Shown here: positions 28,278 through 37,909 of the stretch, piece by piece | Layout of the letters: the number at the start of each line of letters is the position of its first letter | Position numbering within the stretch: position 1 is the stretch's first letter | Source of the DNA: Stenotrophomonas sp. 278 | GTDB lineage: Bacteria; Pseudomonadota; Gammaproteobacteria; Xanthomonadales; Xanthomonadaceae | DNA: 47,225 nt | Assembly: GCF_003935715.1 (NCBI RefSeq) | Contig: NZ_RHPP01000016.1 | Location: forward strand, 1 to 47,225 | Direction of reading: 5' to 3' | Notes under the pieces: model-generated | The model's database searches: none | What the model was told of the DNA's origin: nothing | What the model saw: the letters and a program-made list of their open reading frames with translations, nothing else | Made by a program: the position numbers and the translations under genes

Positions 28278-30634
28278 TGTTCAAGACTGTCCTCTTCCAG
28301 GTGCACTGGCTGCTCGGCATCACGGCCGGGACCGTGCTGGCGGTCATGGGCCTGAGCGGTGCCGCGCTCTCGTTTGAAGACGAGATCGTGCGCGCCCTCA
28401 ACGCGGATGTTGCCGACGTCGCACAACGCCACGCCGCTGGCGAGCAGCCGCTGGCCCTGAGCGAGCTGCTGCCGCGACTGCAGGAAGGCACCGACCGGCC
28501 GCTGCAGCGCCTGCGCGTGGATGCCACCGGTCAACGCCTGTCGGTGGCCCGCTTCGAGGGCGGCAAACAACACTGGCGTTACTTCAACCCCTATACGGGC
28601 CAGAGACTCGATGATCTGCGCGGACTGGCCTTCTTCGATTTCACCGAAGATCTGCACCGGCACCTGGTGGCCGGCGACCGGGGCAAGCTGATCACCGGCG
28701 TCTGCGCCATCACCCTGGTGTTCTTCGCGCTGTCCGGGCTGTATCTGCGCTGGCCAAGGCAGTGGTGGCACTGGCGGACCTGGCTGGCGGTGGAGTGGTC
28801 GCGCAGCGGCCGCAGCTTCCTGTGGAGCCTGCACTCGGTGGTGGGCACCTGGGTGCTGGTGGTCTACCTGCTGCTGGCACTGACCGGCCTGTGGTGGTCA
28901 TTCGACTGGTACCGCACAGGCGCGACCCAGCTGCTGGGCGGGCCCAGCCGCGAGGAACCCGCCCTGCGCGCCAGCAACGGCGCGCCGGACATGAAGCGCG
29001 TCGAGCACACGTTGTACGCCCTGCCCGGCGTTCGCCACGGTTACATCGACCTGCGCTTCCCCAACAAGCCCGGCCGCCCGTTGACCGGACGGGTGCAGTC
29101 CACCGAGGCGGCCCACGACCGCGCCCAGGACAACGTGCAACTGGACCCAGTTACGGGTGACCTGCTGCAGCACGAGCCGTACCGGCAGATGAGCGCTGGA
29201 CGCAAAACCATGACCAGCATGTTCGCCCTCCACTCCGGCAGTTTCTTCGGGCTGCCGGGCCGGGTCATCGTCATGCTTTCGAGTCTGGCGATGCTGCTGT
29301 TCTTCATTACCGGCTGGATGCTGTATCTGGACCGCCGCCGGCGCAAGCGTGAAGTACGCGCCGCCCGGCAGCCGATGACCGCCCGTCACGTCGAGGGACA
29401 GGCTCCGTGGCTGGTCGCCTTTGCCAGCCAGAGCGGGTTCGCCGAGCAGCTGGCGTGGCGCGCTGCCGCCCAGCTGCAGGGGGCCGGCATGCCGGTGCAG
29501 GTGAAGCCATTGGGCCAACTGGATGCGACCAGCCTGCAGAAGGCACAAAATGCCCTGTTCGTGATCAGTACCTTTGGCGACGGCGAAGCACCCGACGCCG
29601 CCCGGGTGTTCGAGCGCCGCCTGCTGCCGCAGAACGTGTCGCTGGCGGATCTGCAGTACGCGGTGCTGGGGCTGGGGGATCACGAGTACGCGCGCTACTG
29701 CGGTTTCTCACGTGCGGTCGACGCATGGCTGGCCGCGCAAGGTGCCCGGCCGTTGTTCTCCACGGTGGAGGTCAACCGCGATGATGCCGCAGCGCTGGCG
29801 CAATGGCAGAACCAGCTGGCCGCACTCACCGGCATAAGCGACCCGGTGCCACTGCCGGCAGCGGAGCCGTTGCAGGACTGGATACTGAAACGCCGCACCC
29901 TGCTCAATCCGGGCAGCGCCGCCGGCGCGATCTGGCAGGTGGAGTTGACCCCGCCCGAACATGCCAGCTGGCAGGCGGGTGACATTCTGGAGATCGTTCC
30001 GGGTCAGCAGACCGGCAACGCCGACGCGGTGCCTGCCCACCGCGAATACTCGATTGCCTCGGTCATGCAGGACGACAGCCTGCAGCTGGTGGTGCGGCTC
30101 ACGTCGCTGCCCGACGGGCGGTCCGGACTCGGTTCCGGCTGGTTGTGCCTGCACGCAGCCGAAGGCACCCCCATCCAGGCGCGGGTCCGTCGCAACAGTG
30201 GGTTCCACCGCTACCCGGAGCACGCGCCGATGCTGTTGATCGGCAATGGCACCGGCATTGCCGGTCTGCGCAGCCTGCTGCGTGAGGCCGCTGCACATGG
30301 CGACGGCGGGCATTGGCTGATATTCGGCGAACGCACCGCAGCGCATGACAGCCTGTATCCCGACGAGATCGAGAGGTGGCAGCAGCAGGGCCATCTGCGC
30401 CGACTGGACCGCGTGTTCTCGCGTGATCTCGACGGCGGTGGCTACGTGCAACACCGACTGCGTGATCAGGCCCAGGCCGTGCACGACTGGGTGGCCATGG
30501 GTGGCAGCATCTATGTCTGCGGTTCACTGCATGGCATGGCCGAAGGCGTGGATCAGGTACTGCGTGAAATCCTGGGTGAAGCCAGCCTGGATACCTTGCT
30601 GGCGGAAGGCCGCTACCGACGGGACGTCTATTGA
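28277..30634 (+). CDS. PepSY membrane protein fused to flavodoxin and FAD/NAD(P)-reductase domains
   Basis: A 785-residue inner-membrane flavoprotein. Residues 1-370 are a PepSY-associated TM module with four membrane helices (VHWLLGITAGTVLAVMGLSG, about 140-160, 195-215, 325-350) and periplasmic PepSY segments. At about 385-525 is a flavodoxin (VAFASQSGFAEQLA, ISTFGDGEAPD, VLGLGDHEYARYCG). At about 545-785 is a CysJ-like reductase (REYSIASVM for FAD, IGNGTGIAGLRSLL and FGER for NAD(P)H, VYVCGS-type end). It should move electrons from NAD(P)H across the membrane, most plausibly to reduce the ferric chelate imported by the receptor (inference). TGATG links it to the receptor gene. Often annotated, wrongly here, as sulfite reductase. 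Confidence 0.9.
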   Translation: MFKTVLFQVHWLLGITAGTVLAVMGLSGAALSFEDEIVRALNADVADVAQRHAAGEQPLALSELLPRLQEGTDRPLQRLRVDATGQRLSVARFEGGKQHWRYFNPYTGQRLDDLRGLAFFDFTEDLHRHLVAGDRGKLITGVCAITLVFFALSGLYLRWPRQWWHWRTWLAVEWSRSGRSFLWSLHSVVGTWVLVVYLLLALTGLWWSFDWYRTGATQLLGGPSREEPALRASNGAPDMKRVEHTLYALPGVRHGYIDLRFPNKPGRPLTGRVQSTEAAHDRAQDNVQLDPVTGDLLQHEPYRQMSAGRKTMTSMFALHSGSFFGLPGRVIVMLSSLAMLLFFITGWMLYLDRRRRKREVRAARQPMTARHVEGQAPWLVAFASQSGFAEQLAWRAAAQLQGAGMPVQVKPLGQLDATSLQKAQNALFVISTFGDGEAPDAARVFERRLLPQNVSLADLQYAVLGLGDHEYARYCGFSRAVDAWLAAQGARPLFSTVEVNRDDAAALAQWQNQLAALTGISDPVPLPAAEPLQDWILKRRTLLNPGSAAGAIWQVELTPPEHASWQAGDILEIVPGQQTGNADAVPAHREYSIASVMQDDSLQLVVRLTSLPDGRSGLGSGWLCLHAAEGTPIQARVRRNSGFHRYPEHAPMLLIGNGTGIAGLRSLLREAAAHGDGGHWLIFGERTAAHDSLYPDEIERWQQQGHLRRLDRVFSRDLDGGGYVQHRLRDQAQAVHDWVAMGGSIYVCGSLHGMAEGVDQVLREILGEASLDTLLAEGRYRRDVY

Positions 30635-31422
30635 AGACGCAAGGGGTCCGGCTGGTTCACATGTGGCAGCTGGCCGGCGGTATGGCGGCCCAGCCAGTCC
30701 GCGAAGCGGGTTGTGCCGATGATGGCCTGGGCCCCGGGCGTCAGGGTCAGCTCCTTGAGTGCCGCGCCGTAGTAACGCGCCTCCCGGTCGCCGACGACCG
30801 GGCGGTCGTCCTGGCGGAAATACATCACCCATTCCACCAGCTCGAACAGGCGATGCCGTTCCGGGCCGCCAATCTCCACCACGCCACCCGGCAATGGCCC
30901 GGTGGCCAGACGGCCCAGGGCCTCGCCAAGGTCATCGGCGGCCAGCGGCTGTACCAGCGCGAGCGGCAGGCGCACCGGCTCACGCTCGGCTCCCGGCGGA
31001 ATCAGCTGCGCCATGAACTCAAAACACTGGGTGGCCCGTACGAGCGTTGCTGGTAGACGGGCGTGCAGGACCAGCTGCTCCTGCACGGCCTTTGCACGGA
31101 AGTAGTCGCTACCTTGCAGATAGGGGGTGCCGACCACCGAAAGCGCAACGAAGTGCCCAACGCCCGCCTGCGCACATGCTGCCAGCAGGTTGGCAGTGCT
31201 GCGCTGGAAAAAGTCACCAACGGCCGGCGCGTCGAAGGACGGTGCATTGGACGCATCCAGCACGACCTCGGCCCCCGCAAGTACTTCCACCAGTCCCGCC
31301 CCGGTCAGGGCATCCACGCCGGTGCGCCGTGACGCCGCCGTTACCTGGTGGCCCGTGTCGCGCAGCCGCTCCACCACCCGGCTTCCAATCAGTCCATGAC
31401 CGCCAATGACGACGATGTTCAT
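30628..31422 (-). CDS. NAD(P)-binding atypical SDR protein (NmrA/epimerase-like), copy 1
   Basis: A 264-residue protein with the N-terminal dinucleotide motif VVIGGHGLIGSRVVERL and conserved blocks FVALSVVGTPYLQGSDYFRAK (Tyr-xxx-Lys like), TLVRATQCFEFMAQLI and VVEIGGPERHRL. These give an atypical short-chain dehydrogenase fold. It is a clear paralogue of the protein at 32997-33752, with the same blocks in the same order. It is the last gene of a four- to six-gene operon and its end overlaps the end of the convergent flavoprotein gene by 7 bp. A GGAG lies 6 bases before ATG 31422. The substrate is unknown. Confidence 0.88.
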   Translation of the reverse strand: MNIVVIGGHGLIGSRVVERLRDTGHQVTAASRRTGVDALTGAGLVEVLAGAEVVLDASNAPSFDAPAVGDFFQRSTANLLAACAQAGVGHFVALSVVGTPYLQGSDYFRAKAVQEQLVLHARLPATLVRATQCFEFMAQLIPPGAEREPVRLPLALVQPLAADDLGEALGRLATGPLPGGVVEIGGPERHRLFELVEWVMYFRQDDRPVVGDREARYYGAALKELTLTPGAQAIIGTTRFADWLGRHTAGQLPHVNQPDPLRLQ

Positions 31423-31442
31423 GTGGATGCTCCGTGGTTGCG

Positions 31443-32465
31443 CTACAGCAGAATGGGACTGGCCGGAACCGGTGCCACCGGCACGTCGCGCTCGTCCAGC
31501 AGCTGACGCAGATCCATCTCGATGGACACGCAGATCTGCGAGATGGGGATGTCGTTGGCCCCGCCCTCAAAGGGATTGGCACTGCTTTCACCCACCTGGT
31601 CCAGCGACGCGTACATCCACGACACCAGCACGCTCAGCGGCACCGCCAGCCACACCATGTGGCCGGCCATGACACCGCCGACCACGTCGTCCAGCGGCGC
31701 GAACAGATCGATCATGCCCAGTGGCAGCAGCACGCACAGAATGCGCACGAAGATGATATTGATGATCGCGTACTGCCGTGGGTAGGGATAATTATTCAGG
31801 CGCTCGCTGCGCGCCTGCTGGTCGTGCAGGTCGCGTAGCACGCGCTGCAGCTCGGCAAAGGCACCGGCACTGATCTGCCCGGCATCCAGCATCTGTTTGA
31901 GATCCGAGCCCTGCAGGTTGAGCACCTCGGTGGCGCGACTGCCTGCACCGAGGATGCGCGCACGCTCCGGCCCGACAACGTATTTGTTCAATTCCATGTC
32001 GAGCGCGCGTGCCTTCTCGGGCACTTCATAGTGTTTGCGGTACTCGACGTTCGGCGCGGCCTGGGTGGTCTCCCACGCCTTGCTGTCACGCATCTGGTAG
32101 CGCAGCACGGTCAACCAGGCCACGTGCCGGTAGGCGAGCCGCCGGGTGAGTTCGGCGTTGCCGACGTAGTCGCGGGTCATCGCGCCCCATACCCGGCTGG
32201 CAGAGTTGATCGATGCCCACACCTGTTGTGCTTCCCACAGGCGGTTGTAAGTCTGGGTGTTCTTGAACCCCACGATCAACGCCACCGTGGTACCCAGCAT
32301 GAAGATCACATTCCAAGGTACTGCCAGCCAATGCCATCCGGCCAGTTGATACAGCGCGACCAGCGCGAGATCGAGCAGGATCAACGCGTACAACGGGCGG
32401 CGGGTCCAGCGCAGGAATTCGAGAAAGGTGTATGAGCGTCCGGCGTGCATGGCCAGGGTCTCCAT
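31443..32465 (-). CDS. Bestrophin-family (UPF0187) anion channel protein
   Basis: A 340-residue membrane protein. Near the N-terminus it has FLEFLRWTRRPLYALILLDLALVALYQ and WNVIFMLGTTVALIVGFKNTQTYNRLWEAQQVW, the bestrophin signature region with N/R/W residues. Two further hydrophobic helices lie at about 225-245 and 260-285. It ends NPFEGGANDIPISQICVSIEMDLRQLL, the acidic cluster region with conserved NPFxG-NDIP. Bacterial bestrophins are pentameric channels. ATG 32465 overlaps the stop of the upstream OsmC gene (TGATG), so expression is coupled. Confidence 0.9.
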   Translation of the reverse strand: METLAMHAGRSYTFLEFLRWTRRPLYALILLDLALVALYQLAGWHWLAVPWNVIFMLGTTVALIVGFKNTQTYNRLWEAQQVWASINSASRVWGAMTRDYVGNAELTRRLAYRHVAWLTVLRYQMRDSKAWETTQAAPNVEYRKHYEVPEKARALDMELNKYVVGPERARILGAGSRATEVLNLQGSDLKQMLDAGQISAGAFAELQRVLRDLHDQQARSERLNNYPYPRQYAIINIIFVRILCVLLPLGMIDLFAPLDDVVGGVMAGHMVWLAVPLSVLVSWMYASLDQVGESSANPFEGGANDIPISQICVSIEMDLRQLLDERDVPVAPVPASPILL

Positions 32466-33004
32466 CAAGAGGATGACGGCGCGGTGGTTGGCACCACCGA
32501 CACCACATGGGTGATGCCGTTGCGGAACATCTTTGCGTAGGGGCAGACGCGTTCGGTGTTGCGGACCAGTTCGGCCGCCACCGCCGCGTCCATGCCGGGC
32601 AGATAGGCCTCCACTTCCGCTGAAAGCAGATACAGCCCGTCGATTGGGTCGCGCGAAAAGGTCACACCGACATCGATGCAGGCATCGACCAGCATCAAGC
32701 CAGCGCGCGCGGCCAGCAGCATCATGGCTCCGTGGAAGCAGGCGGCATAACCGGCGGCCAGCAGCTGTTCGGGATTGCTACCGCCACCAGGTCCACCCAG
32801 CGCCGGCGGCAACCGCAGGTCCAGTGCCAAGGCACCATCGTCGGACACCACGACTCCCGACGCCCGCCCATGACCGGCCGTGCCTCCGCTGACCCGCACG
32901 CGCCCGGTGTAAAGCGGACGCACCTCATCGCCGTGGTACTTGTCGAGCACCCCTGGCGAGGGCGGCTTCAACGTCGGGCCAGCGTCGTCAGGTACGTCAG
33001 GCAT
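32465..33004 (-). CDS. OsmC/Ohr-family organic hydroperoxide reductase
   Basis: A 179-residue protein of the Ohr subgroup. The two catalytic cysteines are C89 in AAGYAACFHGAM and C154 in NTERVCPYAKMF; the Arg/Glu network is represented by R36 and SNPEQLLAAG. Ohr proteins detoxify organic and fatty-acid hydroperoxides using lipoylated partners. An N-terminal extension of about 20 residues is longer than the ~140-residue family norm. ATG 33004 overlaps the end of the upstream SDR gene by 8 bp. It points to an oxidative or lipid-peroxide theme for the operon. Confidence 0.9.
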   Translation of the reverse strand: MPDVPDDAGPTLKPPSPGVLDKYHGDEVRPLYTGRVRVSGGTAGHGRASGVVVSDDGALALDLRLPPALGGPGGGSNPEQLLAAGYAACFHGAMMLLAARAGLMLVDACIDVGVTFSRDPIDGLYLLSAEVEAYLPGMDAAVAAELVRNTERVCPYAKMFRNGITHVVSVVPTTAPSSS

Positions 33005-33752
33005 GGCGCGCGAAATCCGAGCCCTGCAGCCAGCCATCGAAATTCTGCTTGCCCAGCCATGCCTCACCCACCGGTACCAGTGTGTCGTCCTGCAGCTGGG
33101 CACCAAAGTAAGGTGCTTTGGCGTCACCGGTTACCCGGCGCGCGTCCTGGGTTCGGTCCAGGAACCGCTGCGCAAGCTCGGCCATGGGCACCCGCTCCGG
33201 GCCGGCGATTTCAACCACGCCGTTGATGGCGGGCTGCACGCTGATGCGGGCCACCGCATCGGCCACGTCCTCGGCCGCGATCGGTTGCACCAGGGCCGTG
33301 GGCAGATGCAGCGCATCGCCCGCCGACTGGATGATGCCCGGCAGGAACTCGAAGAACTGGGTGGAGTGGATGATGGTGTAGGCGATGCCGGATTCGCGGA
33401 TCAGGCGCTCCTGTGCGATCTTGCCGCGGAAGTAGCCACTCGCGGCCAGCTTGTCGGTGCCCACCACCGACAGCGCCACGTGGTGGCCAACGCCGGCGCG
33501 CGCTTCAGCCGAGAGGATGTTGTGGCCGGCGGTCTGGAAGAATTCCAGCACGGCGGCGTCTTCGAACGAGGGGGAATTGGCCAGATCCACCACCACGTCG
33601 GTGCCTGCCATTGCCGCATCCAGTCCTTCGCCACTGATGATGTCGATACCGGTGGATGGTGCCGCGATGACGATCTCGTGTCCGGCCGCACGCAGGCGGT
33701 CGACGACCTTGCTGCCGATGCGGCCGGTGCCGCCGATGACCAGAATCTTCAT
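32997..33752 (-). CDS. NAD(P)-binding atypical SDR protein (NmrA/epimerase-like), copy 2
   Basis: A 251-residue paralogue of the gene at 30628-31422: VIGGTGRIGSKVVDRL for the cofactor, VALSVVGTDKLAASGYFRGK, TIIHSTQFFEFLPGI and VVEIAGPERVPM. I choose ATG 33752 because GGAG at 33763-33760 lies 7 bases ahead; the ATG at 33758 would be only 1 base from it. It is the first enzyme gene of the run SDR, OsmC, bestrophin, SDR. The 112 bp before it (33753-33864), after the LysR gene, contain no clear terminator, so read-through from the LysR gene is possible. Confidence 0.9.
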   Translation of the reverse strand: MKILVIGGTGRIGSKVVDRLRAAGHEIVIAAPSTGIDIISGEGLDAAMAGTDVVVDLANSPSFEDAAVLEFFQTAGHNILSAEARAGVGHHVALSVVGTDKLAASGYFRGKIAQERLIRESGIAYTIIHSTQFFEFLPGIIQSAGDALHLPTALVQPIAAEDVADAVARISVQPAINGVVEIAGPERVPMAELAQRFLDRTQDARRVTGDAKAPYFGAQLQDDTLVPVGEAWLGKQNFDGWLQGSDFARHA

Positions 33753-33864
33753 GTTCATGCTCCAGAGCTGGGTAGAGGTACAGCACTGATGCTAGGTACC
33801 CGCGGTGTGCCTCAATAGATCCCTGGCAGGACGCGCGTTGTTGCCCGCCACGCACCAATGACCT

Positions 33865-34899
33865 TTATCGCCAGGCGGCCGGATCCGGCAGTGATGCGGA
33901 GGAAGGTGTGCGAAGCGTGTTCTCCCAGTGCGTCACCACGTCCAGGTCCAGCGCGCGCACTTCGGCGGTGATGAAATCGATGAATGCGCGGATGCGTTTG
34001 GGCAGCTGGCGGCGGCTGAGGTAGCACAGGTAGTGCCCCCGGTCATCGGCGGCATAGCGGTCCAGGCAGCGCACCAGCTCGCCGGCATCCAGCGCGGCCC
34101 GCACCTGGTAATTGGGCAGCTGCGCCAGCCCCTGCCCCTGCATCACCGCCTGCAGCGCCAGGTCTGCGTCATTGAAAACCAGCGTCGCGTCCGGCTCGAG
34201 TGCCAGCGCCCGCCCGTCCACACGGAACTCCCAGGGCTGCAGCCGGCCATTGGCCTGACGCAGGCTGATGCAGGCGTGCGCGCCCAGCTCCTCCACCCGC
34301 TCCGGCAGACCGTGCGCTGCCACGTAGCCCGGGGTGGCGCACACCAGCAGTTGCATCGGAATCAGGTGTTTGGCGATCACGTCGCTGTCCTCGAGCACGC
34401 CGTCCCGGAACGCCACGTCAATGCGGTCGGCGGCAAGATCCAGCGCGCGCTCTTCCAGCAGCAACTCCAGGGTGACGTCGGGAAAACGTGCCCGGAAAGG
34501 GGCCAGAAGCGGCGCAATCACCTTACGTCCGAATCCGCCCGTAGCGCTGATCCGCAGGTGACCCCGCGGGGGACCATCACGCAGGTCACGCATCTCTTCC
34601 AGCGCCTGCAGAATGCGATCCACGCCGGGTCGGCAACCCTCATGGAACAGCTCGCCCTCACGGGTGAGCGAGGTGGAGCGCGTTGTGCGCAGGAACAGGC
34701 GCACACCGAGCTGGCCCTCCAGCTTCTGCACGCTGCGGCTCACCGCCGAACGCCCTATGCCCAGCCGGTCGGCCGCGCGCGAGAAGCTGCCCTCATGCGC
34801 GACCGCAATGAACGCCAGCACGCCTGCGTAGCTGGCCGAGAAGCCGGTAGTGAGGGCATCGGTACCCTCGTCGGCAGCCAGTGTATCGGTCAAGGACAT
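33865..34899 (-). CDS. LysR-family transcriptional regulator
   Basis: A 344-residue regulator. The N-terminal winged HTH is at about 27-85 (LAFIAVAHEGSFSRAADRLGIGRSAVSRSVQKLEGQLGVRLFLRTTR), followed by a periplasmic-binding-type effector domain with GHLRISATGGFGRKVIAPLL. The first ~24 residues are an extension not usual for LysR proteins. It overlaps the mini-protein gene at 34890-35153 by 10 bp and precedes the SDR-OsmC-bestrophin operon on the same strand, so it is likely its local regulator. It is not divergent from its presumed targets, which is less usual for the family. Confidence 0.9.
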   Translation of the reverse strand: MSLTDTLAADEGTDALTTGFSASYAGVLAFIAVAHEGSFSRAADRLGIGRSAVSRSVQKLEGQLGVRLFLRTTRSTSLTREGELFHEGCRPGVDRILQALEEMRDLRDGPPRGHLRISATGGFGRKVIAPLLAPFRARFPDVTLELLLEERALDLAADRIDVAFRDGVLEDSDVIAKHLIPMQLLVCATPGYVAAHGLPERVEELGAHACISLRQANGRLQPWEFRVDGRALALEPDATLVFNDADLALQAVMQGQGLAQLPNYQVRAALDAGELVRCLDRYAADDRGHYLCYLSRRQLPKRIRAFIDFITAEVRALDLDVVTHWENTLRTPSSASLPDPAAWR

Positions 34900-35153
34900 G
34901 GTGGGGTCGCTCCAAAATGACGGGCGTGGTCCTGCAGACAGGCGTGGGCCGCTTCCAGGTGCTGCCGACAGCGTTCGGCGGGCAGGCCCAGCAGCGGAAT
35001 CAGCGACTCGAGCGGAATGCCTGCGACGTCATGCAGCAGCAGGGTCAGCCGCACATCGGCGGGCAGGCTGTCCAGCGCGTGCAGAAAGGTCGTCCACACC
35101 TGCTCGGCGGGATGAGGCGGACCTGCATGCGGGGCGGAGTTGTCGGGATTCAT
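34890..35153 (-). CDS. Stand-alone sigma-70 region 4-like mini-protein
   Basis: A frame of 87 residues. Residues 23-75 (FLHALDSLPADVRLTLLLHD, then VAGIPLESLIPLLGLPAERCRQHL) align well with region 4 of ECF sigma factors; the ECF41-type factor at 36324 has LERLAPEARAAFLLHDVFDREY in the matching place. There is no region 2, so it cannot be a sigma factor by itself. It could be a decoy or partner of RNA polymerase or of the ECF41 factor, or a decayed sigma factor. It starts about 9 bases after the -10 part of a predicted ECF41 promoter, which implies a leaderless or almost leaderless mRNA. No ribosome-binding site is seen. Confidence 0.6.
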   Translation of the reverse strand: MNPDNSAPHAGPPHPAEQVWTTFLHALDSLPADVRLTLLLHDVAGIPLESLIPLLGLPAERCRQHLEAAHACLQDHARHFGATPPCP

Positions 35154-35161
35154 GCAAGGCA

Positions 35162-35188
35162 GACGGCCCAGCATCCGGCCCTGTGACA
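35162..35188 (-). promoter_or_regulatory. Predicted ECF41-type promoter (TGTCACA-N16-CGTC)
   Basis: Read on the minus strand, TGTCACA is at 35188-35182 and CGTC at 35165-35162, separated by exactly 16 bases. This is the promoter pattern I know for ECF41 sigma factors, and an ECF41-type gene lies 1.1 kb away. It points toward the mini-protein and LysR genes. The only other TGTCACA I noticed (40675-40669, minus strand) has no CGTC at the right distance. Confidence 0.7.
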
Positions 35189-35328
35189 CCCCGGGAGAAA
35201 AAGATTGGTGCCGGGTGATCAACACGGTGTGGACGCGCGACGGGCTACTGCGCCGGCCTGTGCCCACCTAGCCTGCAGGCTCGGGCAATCGCCCGAATCC
35301 TTTCCCCTTTTCTGACAGGACTCCCGCC

Positions 35329-35808
35329 ATGACCGAACGTCTCGACTACCAGAAACAGGCACCCGCGCTGTTCAAGAAGCTGCTCGACTACAGCATGGCC
35401 GCGCACGCGACCACCATCGATGAGAGCATCCAGGACCTGGTGTCCATCCGCGCCTCGCAGATCAACGGCTGCGGCTTCTGCGTGGACATGCATGTGAAGC
35501 AGGCCACGATCCACGGCGAACGCCCGCTGCGCCTGCACCACCTGGCGGTCTGGCGTGAGTCGACGCTGTTCAGCCCGCGCGAACGCGCCAGCCTGGCGTG
35601 GACCGAAGTGCTGACCCAGCTTCCGCCGCAGGGCGTCCCGGACGACCTGTATGAGCGCGTGCGTGGCCAGCTGTCCGAGCAGGAACTCGTGGACCTCACC
35701 CACGCGGTAATGGCCATCAATGCGTGGAACCGCATCAATATCGCCTTCCGCAGCGAGCCGGGCTCGCGCGACAAGGCATTCGGCATCGACAAGTCCAATC
35801 TGTCCTGA
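35329..35808 (+). CDS. AhpD-like carboxymuconolactone decarboxylase-family protein
   Basis: A 159-residue all-helical protein of the AhpD/CMD family. The active-site motif is INGCGFCVDMH (C48, C51, H55), the CxxC-xxx-H pattern of alkylhydroperoxidases, with an upstream Glu in the DLVSIRAS helix region. Such proteins usually reduce peroxides or disulfides. Carboxymuconolactone decarboxylase-like genes are one of the three gene types commonly linked to ECF41 sigma factors, and here the sigma gene lies two genes downstream. AGGA lies 10 bases before ATG 35329. The 175-bp gap before it (35154-35328) is shared with the divergent mini-protein operon. Confidence 0.92.
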   Translation: MTERLDYQKQAPALFKKLLDYSMAAHATTIDESIQDLVSIRASQINGCGFCVDMHVKQATIHGERPLRLHHLAVWRESTLFSPRERASLAWTEVLTQLPPQGVPDDLYERVRGQLSEQELVDLTHAVMAINAWNRINIAFRSEPGSRDKAFGIDKSNLS

Positions 35809-35814
35809 GTAACC

Positions 35815-35835
35815 GGGTGCCGGCACACGGCACCC
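35815..35835 (+). promoter_or_regulatory. Hairpin between the AhpD-like gene and the cupin gene
   Basis: GGGTGCCG-GCACA-CGGCACCC is a perfect 8-bp stem with a 5-base loop, 6 bp after one stop codon and 9 bp before the GGAGGA of the next gene. No T run follows, so it is more likely an RNA stability or processing element than a terminator. Confidence 0.5.
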
Positions 35836-35855
35836 CACCCACTGGAGGAATTGCC

Positions 35856-36260
35856 ATGCGCGTCATGTTGTCATCCCTGATGCTGCTGCTTGGCGGTGCG
35901 GCGAGCGCCGCCCCTGCCCCCAGCTCGCCACCTGAACCGGTCGTCACCTCTGTGATGACCCAGCCCCTGCCTGAATACCCCGGCAAGGAAGCGTTGATCC
36001 TGACCGTGGAGTACCCACCCGGCGGAGCCGACCCGGTGCACCGGCACGACGCGCACGGCTTTGTGTATGTGCTGGAAGGCAGGATCGTGATGGGTGTCGC
36101 GGGGGGGCGGGAGGTGACGCTCGGGCCGGGCGAAGCCTTCCACGAAGGTCCCGCTGACCTGCACACGGTGGGGCGAAATGCCAGCCAGACCGAACCGGCG
36201 CGGTTCGTGGTGTTCCTGCTCAAGGACGCCGGCAAGCCCGCCGTGCTGCCGCCGCATTGA
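35856..36260 (+). CDS. Exported cupin-domain protein
   Basis: A 134-residue protein with a signal peptide (MRVMLSSLMLLLGGAASAAP, cleavage near residue 19). One cupin barrel is visible: ADPVHRHDAHGFVYVLEGRIVMG (motif 1 with H, H and E) and GEAFHEGPADLHTVGRN (motif 2 with H). The His and Glu residues are those that bind a metal in the family. The catalytic role is unknown. ATG 35856 has GGAGGA 6 bases ahead. It lies between the AhpD-like gene and the ECF41 sigma gene in one apparent operon. Confidence 0.9.
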   Translation: MRVMLSSLMLLLGGAASAAPAPSSPPEPVVTSVMTQPLPEYPGKEALILTVEYPPGGADPVHRHDAHGFVYVLEGRIVMGVAGGREVTLGPGEAFHEGPADLHTVGRNASQTEPARFVVFLLKDAGKPAVLPPH

Positions 36261-36323
36261 ATCTTCTTGCGGTAATCGCGGCTGGCACTTCCCGCGCCGG
36301 CCGCTGTCGTGTTGAATGCCGCG

Positions 36324-37211
36324 ATGGATGACGCCACCGCCCGCTTTCAACAGTGCCGCCCGCGCGTGATCGGAGTGGCCTATCGCATGCTCGGCTCACT
36401 GGCCGAGGCCGAGGACATCGCCCAGGAAACGTGGCTGCGCTGGAACGGCACTGATCGTGACGTCATCGAGAACGACGAGGCGTGGCTGGTCGCCACCGCG
36501 ACCCGCCTGGCCATCGACGAACTGCGCCTGGCGCGGCGTACGCGCGAACAGTACGTCGGCATCTGGTTGCCCGAGCCGGTGCTCACCGAGGAAGCGGGCA
36601 CTCCGGAACAGCTGCACGAAATGGCCAGCGATCTTTCGGTGGCGTTTCTGGCGGTGCTGGAGCGGCTCGCGCCCGAGGCGCGTGCCGCCTTCCTTCTGCA
36701 CGACGTGTTCGACCGCGAGTATCCGGAGATCGCCCGCATCCTGGAAAAGAGCGAGGCCAGCTGCCGGCAGATCGTGCACCGCGCGCGGCAGCGCCTGCGC
36801 GAAGAGCGAACGCTGCACGAGGTGCCGCATGAGACCCATCGCCGCCTGCTGGCGTCCTTTACTTTGGCCCTGGAGCGTGGCGACCTGAAGGCGATGATGG
36901 CGCTGATGGACAGCGACGCGCAGCTGATGGGCGATGGCGGTGGCATCGTCTCCAGCTTCCCGAAACCGATGCTGGGTGGCGCACGTATCGCCCAGCTGCT
37001 GTTCGCGCCGACGCTGCGCCGACGCGCGGAGCTGCGCATGGTGCCGGCCGTGTTCAATGGTCGCATCGGATTGCTGCGGTACTTTGGCACGCAGCTGGAA
37101 TCGGCGATGGCGTTCGACACCGACGGCGAACGCATCGTGCAGATTCTGGTGCAGCGCAATCCGCACAAGCTGGCACAGATCGAGGCGCGGCAGGCGTTAC
37201 CGCTGCGCTGA
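36324..37211 (+). CDS. ECF41-type RNA polymerase sigma factor with fused C-terminal NTF2-like domain
   Basis: A 295-residue sigma factor. Region 2 (about 7-75) includes AYRMLGSLAEAEDIAQETWLRW and region 4 (about 107-160) LERLAPEARAAFLLHDVFDR. The remaining ~120 residues are a SnoaL/NTF2-like domain with DGGG (204-207) and NGRIG (245-249), the hallmarks of ECF41, whose C-terminal domain replaces an anti-sigma factor. ECF41 genes typically sit beside carboxymuconolactone decarboxylase, oxidoreductase or epimerase genes, as here. GTG 36309 is an alternative start. Its tail overlaps the convergent M23 gene by 15 bp. Confidence 0.92.
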   Translation: MDDATARFQQCRPRVIGVAYRMLGSLAEAEDIAQETWLRWNGTDRDVIENDEAWLVATATRLAIDELRLARRTREQYVGIWLPEPVLTEEAGTPEQLHEMASDLSVAFLAVLERLAPEARAAFLLHDVFDREYPEIARILEKSEASCRQIVHRARQRLREERTLHEVPHETHRRLLASFTLALERGDLKAMMALMDSDAQLMGDGGGIVSSFPKPMLGGARIAQLLFAPTLRRRAELRMVPAVFNGRIGLLRYFGTQLESAMAFDTDGERIVQILVQRNPHKLAQIEARQALPLR

Positions 37212-37814
37212 GTCAGCTGGCGGCTTCCAGGCCCTGAGCAGTGGAAGCGGATCATACGCGCCGTCTGCCCCATAGATTCCCCAGTGCAGATGCGGCGGGG
37301 TACCGGCGGCGTTGCCGGTCGTACCTACATATCCCAGCACGTCGCCCTCGGCGACCACCTCGCCCTCGCGCAGACCGGCGCGCCAGTCTTCCAGGTGCGC
37401 GTAGTAGTAGCGTTCGCGCGCCGGTCCAGCCACCCACACCTGGCGTCCGCCGAGGCCGGTATCGCGTACTGCCACGATCACCCCGGCGGTGGCGCTGCGC
37501 ACCGGTGTCCCGCGCTTGGCGAAGATGTCCACACCCGCATGGGTACGGTCGCGACCGCGTGGCGCACCAAAGGTATCGGCGATGCGCCGCGCCGCCACCC
37601 CTTCCACCGGTACCGGCAAAGCAACCGGCGGCGGCATGCGTGACAGCTCCCACAGCGCACGCGGTGCCTTGAGCCATTCGCTGTTCCACACGCTCATGGC
37701 CGTCACGGCAAGCATCGCCAGCAGGAGCAGCCCCACCAGCCAACCGCGCAGCCGCCAGGCCACTGATCGTTTCGGTATCGCATGCTGGATGCCAGTGGGT
37801 CGTGGATCATTCAT
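37197..37814 (-). CDS. M23-family (LytM-type) peptidase, membrane-anchored
   Basis: A 205-residue protein with one membrane anchor (about 23-43) and a LytM domain outside the inner membrane. Zinc ligands are visible: H92 and D96 in THAGVDIF, and H175 and H177 in PPHLHWG. It should cleave peptidoglycan cross-bridges or control such cleavage. The start is uncertain: ATG 37814 is chosen because the basic cytoplasmic tail and anchor follow; ATG 37856 is in frame too. It is divergent from the decayed mipA gene. Confidence 0.9.
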   Translation of the reverse strand: MNDPRPTGIQHAIPKRSVAWRLRGWLVGLLLLAMLAVTAMSVWNSEWLKAPRALWELSRMPPPVALPVPVEGVAARRIADTFGAPRGRDRTHAGVDIFAKRGTPVRSATAGVIVAVRDTGLGGRQVWVAGPARERYYYAHLEDWRAGLREGEVVAEGDVLGYVGTTGNAAGTPPHLHWGIYGADGAYDPLPLLRAWKPPADSAQR

Positions 37815-37909
37815 ATCTGCAGCTTCGCAGATGAGGTGTCCACGAGGCGTGCCCATTTACGGTTCAACCACGGGACCTGGCTGAATCAACGCACACAGGC
37901 CAGGCGGCC

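Follow-up and report, generated by a model that had tools for sequence, protein, structure and literature searches.

Comparative evidence for an ECF41-type promoter, probably leaderless, before a sigma region 4-like mini-protein and a LysR gene in Stenotrophomonas and its relatives

Sigma factors of the extracytoplasmic function (ECF) group ECF41 occur widely, have no obvious anti-sigma genes and are generally reported to control a single target gene or operon (Wecke et al. 2012, PMC3426412). Two described members, Ecf41Bli and Ecf41Rsp, combine a fused C-terminal domain and a TGTCACA-16±1-CGTC promoter with CMD and epimerase-like neighbours, a cupin gene sometimes lying between them. A CMD/oxidoreductase/epimerase gene is the usual, though not universal, direct target, together with the ECF gene, and no other conserved target was found; two mapped promoters give leaders of 22/23 nt that include a ribosome-binding site (PMC3426412). 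The subject here is a cassette in a 47,225-nt stretch of Stenotrophomonas sp. 278 (contig NZ_RHPP01000016.1, positions 1 to 47,225; hereafter the window), which shares the domain, promoter and neighbours of these systems. Here, however, the promoter stands before a gene for a protein matching sigma region 4 only (the mini-protein) and a LysR gene, and CMD would be one step removed. The reading that is considered reasonably probable is a two-step module, in which ECF41 would activate the mini-protein and LysR genes, LysR would activate enzyme operons and the mini-protein would tune ECF41.

By its family models and hallmarks, the product of 36324-37211 (plus strand) is an ECF41 sigma factor of the SigJ/SigX4 type, consisting of sigma2, a WLPEP linker, sigma4 and the fused C-terminal domain. 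It scores 337.7 bits against the SigX4 model TIGR02957 (cut-off 323.25) and 294.6 against the SigJ model NF007214 (cut-off 271), nearly full length in both cases, and its best solved relative is SigJ (5xe7), matched over profile positions 6-284. The ECF41 build that a preliminary description of the locus had assigned to this protein is borne out by the YVGIWLPEP linker and by the DGGG, NGRIG and NPHKL motifs, and its C-terminal domain gave no independent Pfam call. The start at ATG 36324 agrees with that of the autoregulated orthologues.

The promoter is located on the opposite strand and points away from the sigma gene, as the preliminary description had claimed. A search for TGTCACA-N16-CGTC re-found a single exact match in the window at 35162..35188 (minus strand), with the -35 element at 35188-35182, a 16-nt spacer as in the ECF41 group, the -10 element at 35165-35162 and a start codon 8 nt further on. 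The expected number of such matches in the window is 0.03, and at least one match arose in 3 of 100 dinucleotide shuffles. Although the genome, of 4.67 Mb, holds no other exact match, the reversed control pattern likewise matches once there, and a single genome is therefore insufficient to settle the matter. A scan of 30400-37900 for sigma-70 promoters, a weak test in G+C-rich DNA, gave no match (1.0 expected from shuffles).

The decisive evidence comes from relatives, where the preliminary description had proposed to look for the motif at syntenic loci and would have taken its absence as refutation; it is present in the mini-bearing loci examined. In the nine loci compared first, window included, the exact motif precedes the mini-protein open reading frame (ORF), one such frame being a remnant. 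Searches of the genus and the family then yielded 48 mini-protein loci, comprising the window and seven of those nine. The pattern [T/C/G]GT[C/A]ACA-N16-CG[T/A]C precedes the mini-protein gene in 46 of them, window included, across five genera, and the ATG follows CGTC or CGAC after 8 nt in 44 loci, 9 nt in one and 10 nt in one. The two uncounted loci, one in which the mini-protein frame runs on (L083) and one in which the ATG following the motif lies in another frame (L089), still show TGTCACA-N16-CGAC. Motif, spacing and mini-protein recur in all nine loci fetched from a second family (f12, genus g91). Within the 91 genomes of the genus, the exact motif stands before 29/29 mini-protein genes and one remnant, and extending it by N8/9-ATG yields 67 matches, spread over 44 genomes, where the reversed control yields one. 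Thirty of the 67 precede a mini-protein gene or remnant, 17 a cassette ECF41 gene, 18 another ECF41 gene and one an unrelated ORF; one (G113) is unassigned, and the ECF41 assignments were made by position or translation, five being translated. The motif columns average 1.90 bits, as compared to 0.22 in the upstream flank (46 distinct sequences), a difference that is partly built in, as the 50 of 58 loci used were chosen by the motif pattern; the remaining eight failed on frame or on a tryptophan anchor, and the motif is nonetheless present there. Since the motif is kept across loci it is taken as real, and a chance match is ruled out by this conservation together with the reversed-pattern control in the 91 genomes. 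The unrelated ORF, of 127 aa, follows the extended leaderless motif at G094:C16:37260-37297 (L176), either by chance or as an extra target.

With the ATG only 8 nt after the -10 element, there is no space for a 22/23-nt leader with a ribosome-binding site like those of the mapped ECF41 promoters, and the mini-lysR message is probably leaderless. From the fixed N8-ATG spacing, messages that are both leaderless and sigma-dependent are predicted for Stenotrophomonas and its relatives. A longer 125-aa ORF beginning at GTG 35267, which would place the motif inside a coding region, is disfavoured by homologues that start at the ATG 8 nt after CGTC. In sister clades, the cassette ECF41 gene carries its own motif, usually 9 nt ahead of its start and 8 or 10 nt in some. 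The preliminary description, whose ECF41 factor and promoter stand, missed these autoregulated genes.

The gene downstream of the motif (34890..35153, minus strand) was recognized as a mini-protein in the preliminary description; its sigma-4-only nature and the leaderless spacing were not. Its product of 87 aa matches sigma region 4, with SigJ (E 3.1e-5) and SigI (E 6.5e-5) as the best models, far below the cut-offs; as a single sequence it stays under those of both Pfam and NCBIfam. A profile of 31 mini-proteins searched against the PDB retrieves SigJ 5xe7 (E 3e-8) together with sigma-4 domains of further ECF factors, and on this basis the mini-protein is a member of the region 4 sequence family, with region 4 only. 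The genus holds 29 copies in 28 of the 91 genomes (E below 1e-30), further copies were found in genera g35, g48, g58 and g64 by the family search (297 genomes) and nine more were fetched from g91. Named records include Stenotrophomonas tumulicola, S. daejeonensis, S. maltophilia and one labelled Xanthomonas chitinilytica. Among 25 genomes of the order with a close ECF41, 18 have a mini-protein match; in G175 the mini-protein frame runs on.

Sequence comparison indicates what this protein has kept and lost. In a tree of 64 columns (near-copies merged, midpoint root), 46 mini-proteins fall on one side of a branch with support 100/92, opposite 28 cassette ECF41, 17 other ECF41 and SigJ region 4. 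This topology comes with a long-branch warning, as one mini-protein (L128) meets the ECF41 side and SigJ is itself a long branch; six mini-proteins of the second family (L130-L135) are absent because they failed the anchor pattern. The tree gives no support to an origin of the mini-protein by recent truncation of the neighbouring ECF41 gene, the mini-proteins branching apart. The sigma-4 core positions are retained, and tryptophan occupies a site in 53/56 mini-proteins at which ECF41 has serine (45/45). This tryptophan was required by the anchor used for the tree and for the residue and charge counts on 46 mini-proteins, and the requirement was dropped for the recount on 56. The recognition helix of cassette ECF41 has arginine in 28/28 and histidine in 27/28, residues presumed, by analogy with E. 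coli sigma-E, to read the -35 element. Only 1/56 and 3/56 mini-proteins retain the equivalents of ECF41 His152 and Arg153, respectively, an acidic residue (Asp/Glu) stands at one or other position in 34/56, and the median charge of the helix is +1 in mini-proteins versus +3 in cassette ECF41. With both residues lost, direct -35 reading by the mini-protein is unlikely, and protein contact is the better guess.

A second element accompanies the sigma motif and suggests how the enzyme genes may be reached. The LysR-family regulator (33865..34899, minus strand; HTH_1 and LysR_substrate domains) starts within the end of the mini-protein gene and is flanked by two copies of ATTGGTG-N9-CAACA. One lies on the CMD side (35204..35224, plus strand), followed by a promoter-like CTACTG-N16-CCTAGC (35245..35272, plus strand); the other lies before the first SDR gene, SDR1 (33839..33859, minus strand), followed at the same distance by a CTATTG-N16-CCTAGC of the same geometry (33791..33818, minus strand). 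LysR operators typically contain a T-N11-A box, and this box is found here between T6 and A18. With one mismatch allowed, these are the only two matches in the window, both exact (0.12 expected), and they are also the only exact matches in the genome. In the interval between the mini-protein gene and CMD, or another divergent gene, 50 of 59 loci show (G/C)TGTTG or TGTTG, nine bases and CACCAAT (CACCAGT in one), nine being the spacer every time in a search that permitted 4 to 14; in the opposite orientation this is ATTGGTG-N9-CAACA. When 28 LysR-bearing loci were searched with the relaxed form ATTGGT[G/T]-N9-N3-CA, at least one site was found in 25 and two sites in 15. Family-wide, exact sites number 72 in 45 of 297 genomes, not all of them at the cassette, against 12 for the reversed control. 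By its position, the element is assigned as the putative operator of the cassette LysR. The one terminator-like match obtained in the scan of 30400-37900 (35225-35208) overlaps the CMD-side copy. Paired exact sites also occur off-cassette at G327:C1:1701206 and 1702794 and at G338:C1:1156628 and 1158216, perhaps marking further LysR targets.

The wiring of this module is supported by comparison, and we infer the role of the mini-protein. In a first step, for which motif conservation speaks, active ECF41 holoenzyme would transcribe the leaderless mini-lysR message from TGTCACA-N16-CGTC and, in sister clades, also its own gene. In a second step, suggested by the paired sites and gene content, LysR would bind ATTGGTG-N9-CAACA between the divergent genes and before SDR1, with CMD-cupin(-ECF41) and SDR-Ohr-(bestrophin-SDR) as outputs; judging from their families only, these may serve in defence against organic peroxides (hydroperoxides) or electrophiles. 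In a third step, the mini-protein, with a sigma-4 core and without the presumed -35-reading residues, would act through contact with a protein, either ECF41 or RNA polymerase, in the simplest form as a decoy limiting ECF41 once active, or, with opposite sign, by releasing ECF41 from its fused C-terminal domain. The more specific proposal is advanced tentatively, namely that a stand-alone, non-DNA-reading sigma-4 mimic, made only when ECF41 is active from a leaderless, LysR-coupled ECF41 promoter, constitutes a dedicated external regulator of ECF41, as a decoy or as a partner switch on the fused C-terminal domain. It would then be a single-domain analogue of the PhyR principle.

Several observations weigh against the module. 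No ECF41 motif precedes the ECF41 gene in the clade of the window, where feedback on the sigma gene would therefore be indirect. The mini-protein is dispensable: in G002, deletion of the sigma-4 core has left a remnant of 30 aa (L034 9578-9702) that retains promoter, start, stop and lysR overlap. A mini-protein match is also lacking in seven of the 25 genomes from the order that carry a close ECF41, and six of these seven have LysR: ORFs of 7, 23 and 21 aa occupy its position in G558, G581 and G549, a frame without a sigma-4 match extends over lysR in G560, G575 lacks an ATG at the 8-nt distance from the motif, G587 lacks the motif and G559 lacks LysR. A median dN/dS (nonsynonymous to synonymous rate ratio) of 0.42, all values lying below 1 in 375 usable of 405 pairs, denotes only moderate constraint. 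Over the whole sigma-4 stretch the median charge (mini-proteins -2, cassette ECF41 0, other ECF41 -2) brings no separation. As for the operator, 3 of the 28 LysR loci have no site, and with one mismatch allowed the genome holds 9 matches as compared to 13 for the control, so that only exact matches are informative.

One alternative sees in the mini-protein ORF chiefly a translational leader: as a leaderless first cistron it would let ribosomes enter and then re-start at lysR, and its sigma-4 resemblance would be a relic under relaxed constraint. Such a role would suit the way the mini-protein gene overlaps the start of lysR, the GGAG-like stretch within its last part and the short ORFs of 7 to 30 aa that take its place in G558, G581, G549 and G002. 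It is nevertheless unlikely: a sigma-4-like protein of 73-94 aa is retained across two families (56 mini-proteins), the proportion of nonsynonymous differences (pN) is lower in its core (0.22) than in its tails (0.40), the new tryptophan is near-invariant, and LysR persists in G575, where no such ORF begins 8 nt from the motif, and in G587, which has no motif. Less likely still is continued DNA binding: the mini-protein would then have changed its specificity and serve as a small repressor or co-activator, either at the ECF41 -35 element or at other sites. It belongs to a helix-turn-helix family and an arginine after a cysteine is kept in 89% of 46 mini-proteins, yet the near-complete loss of the His152 and Arg153 equivalents, the acidic residues in their place and the lower charge of the recognition helix argue against this. 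Very improbable is a two-subunit sigma factor of the SigO/RsoA kind, in which the mini-protein would supply sigma-4 to a sigma-2 partner; the sigma-4-like protein does stand alone, but the adjoining sigma factor is complete, the recognition residues of the mini-protein are lost, and no sigma-2-only gene is present among ten scanned locus proteins, the rest of the genome being unsearched for one.

The preliminary description had instead let ECF41 directly drive one long operon from the mini-protein and LysR to SDR, Ohr, bestrophin and SDR. The families of the facing genes are confirmed: SDR1 (32997..33758) and SDR2 (30628..31422), both NmrA/NAD-binding, enclose an Ohr/OsmC peroxiredoxin (32465..33127) and a bestrophin (31443..32468), all on the minus strand. 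The listed frame of Ohr overlaps SDR1, and many relatives align only from residue 53; the listed start is therefore probably too far upstream, the true one lying near 32971. The shared strand, the close spacing from SDR1 to SDR2 and possible mini-lysR read-through are compatible with a single operon, which is judged improbable, since the gap between LysR and SDR1 measures 106 bp and holds a conserved operator/promoter-like element in the same geometry as before CMD. With this element, ECF41 most likely drives the mini-protein and LysR only; that part of the regulon formerly proposed stands, and ECF41 probably does not act directly on the SDR-Ohr genes.

The favoured two-step module also bears on CMD (35329..35808, plus strand; AhpD-like, CxxC as CGFC) and cupin (35856..36260, plus strand), which lie between the ECF41 and mini-protein genes. 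Neither has an ECF41 motif in the window, as had been noted for CMD, and none was found before CMD in the mini-bearing loci listed, where the usual direct-target arrangement is accordingly absent. In three cassettes without CMD and cupin (L058, L061, L068), the operator-like element stands directly before ECF41; L052 lacks it, as does L040, in which both ECF41 motifs are kept. In G559 (L203 4684-4765), CMD itself is immediately preceded by an ECF41 motif, at about 54 nt from the start of the gene, and the fetched stretch contains no LysR, mini-protein or operator-like element; the link from ECF41 to CMD may therefore be either direct or relayed. Three loci (L081, L089, L091) show tandem double cupin matches next to CMD, and G026 has two cassette copies (L038, L040), one without the intervening CMD and cupin. 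In a second ECF41 type (L011-L031), 44-49% identical to that of the window, the ECF41 gene is often preceded by TGTCAC[A/G]-N16-CGT, which recurs close to the end of the gene, and a CMD gene follows in 4/4 larger loci (L041-L044).

Set against described systems, the arrangement suggests an undescribed way of controlling the ECF41 family. No description of an ECF41-mini-LysR module was recognised in the open-licence full-text literature, subscription papers lying mostly outside that scope. A series can be drawn across lineages, from an ECF41 motif before CMD (G559) through a relay without the mini-protein (G558) to a relay with it (18 of the 25 order genomes), showing how a one-gene regulon may have turned into a cascade. 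The conserved relay from ECF41 to LysR with a co-made sigma-4 mimic would add a second layer of control that is concrete and open to testing. In ECF56, SigG1 is a SnoaL-fused ECF factor, and a further regulator, RsfG, is encoded beside it; RsfG is an anti-sigma factor cotranscribed with the sigma gene, and no sigma-4 mimic is described in the part of that report available (PMC7730460). SigO, like the mini-protein, has sigma-4 on a separate protein, but works with the sigma2 protein RsoA, whereas the cassette has a full ECF41 and a mini-protein that has lost its DNA-reading residues. PhyR, of the alphaproteobacterial general stress response, resembles the mini-protein as a sigma mimic with degenerate promoter-binding parts that is divergently encoded and transcribed from the sigma factor's own promoter type (PMC8103513). 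It combines a sigma2-sigma4-like domain with a receiver and titrates NepR, whereas the 87-aa protein matches region 4 only and stands in a cassette with no separate anti-sigma factor known, where ECF41 itself or RNA polymerase would be its partner.

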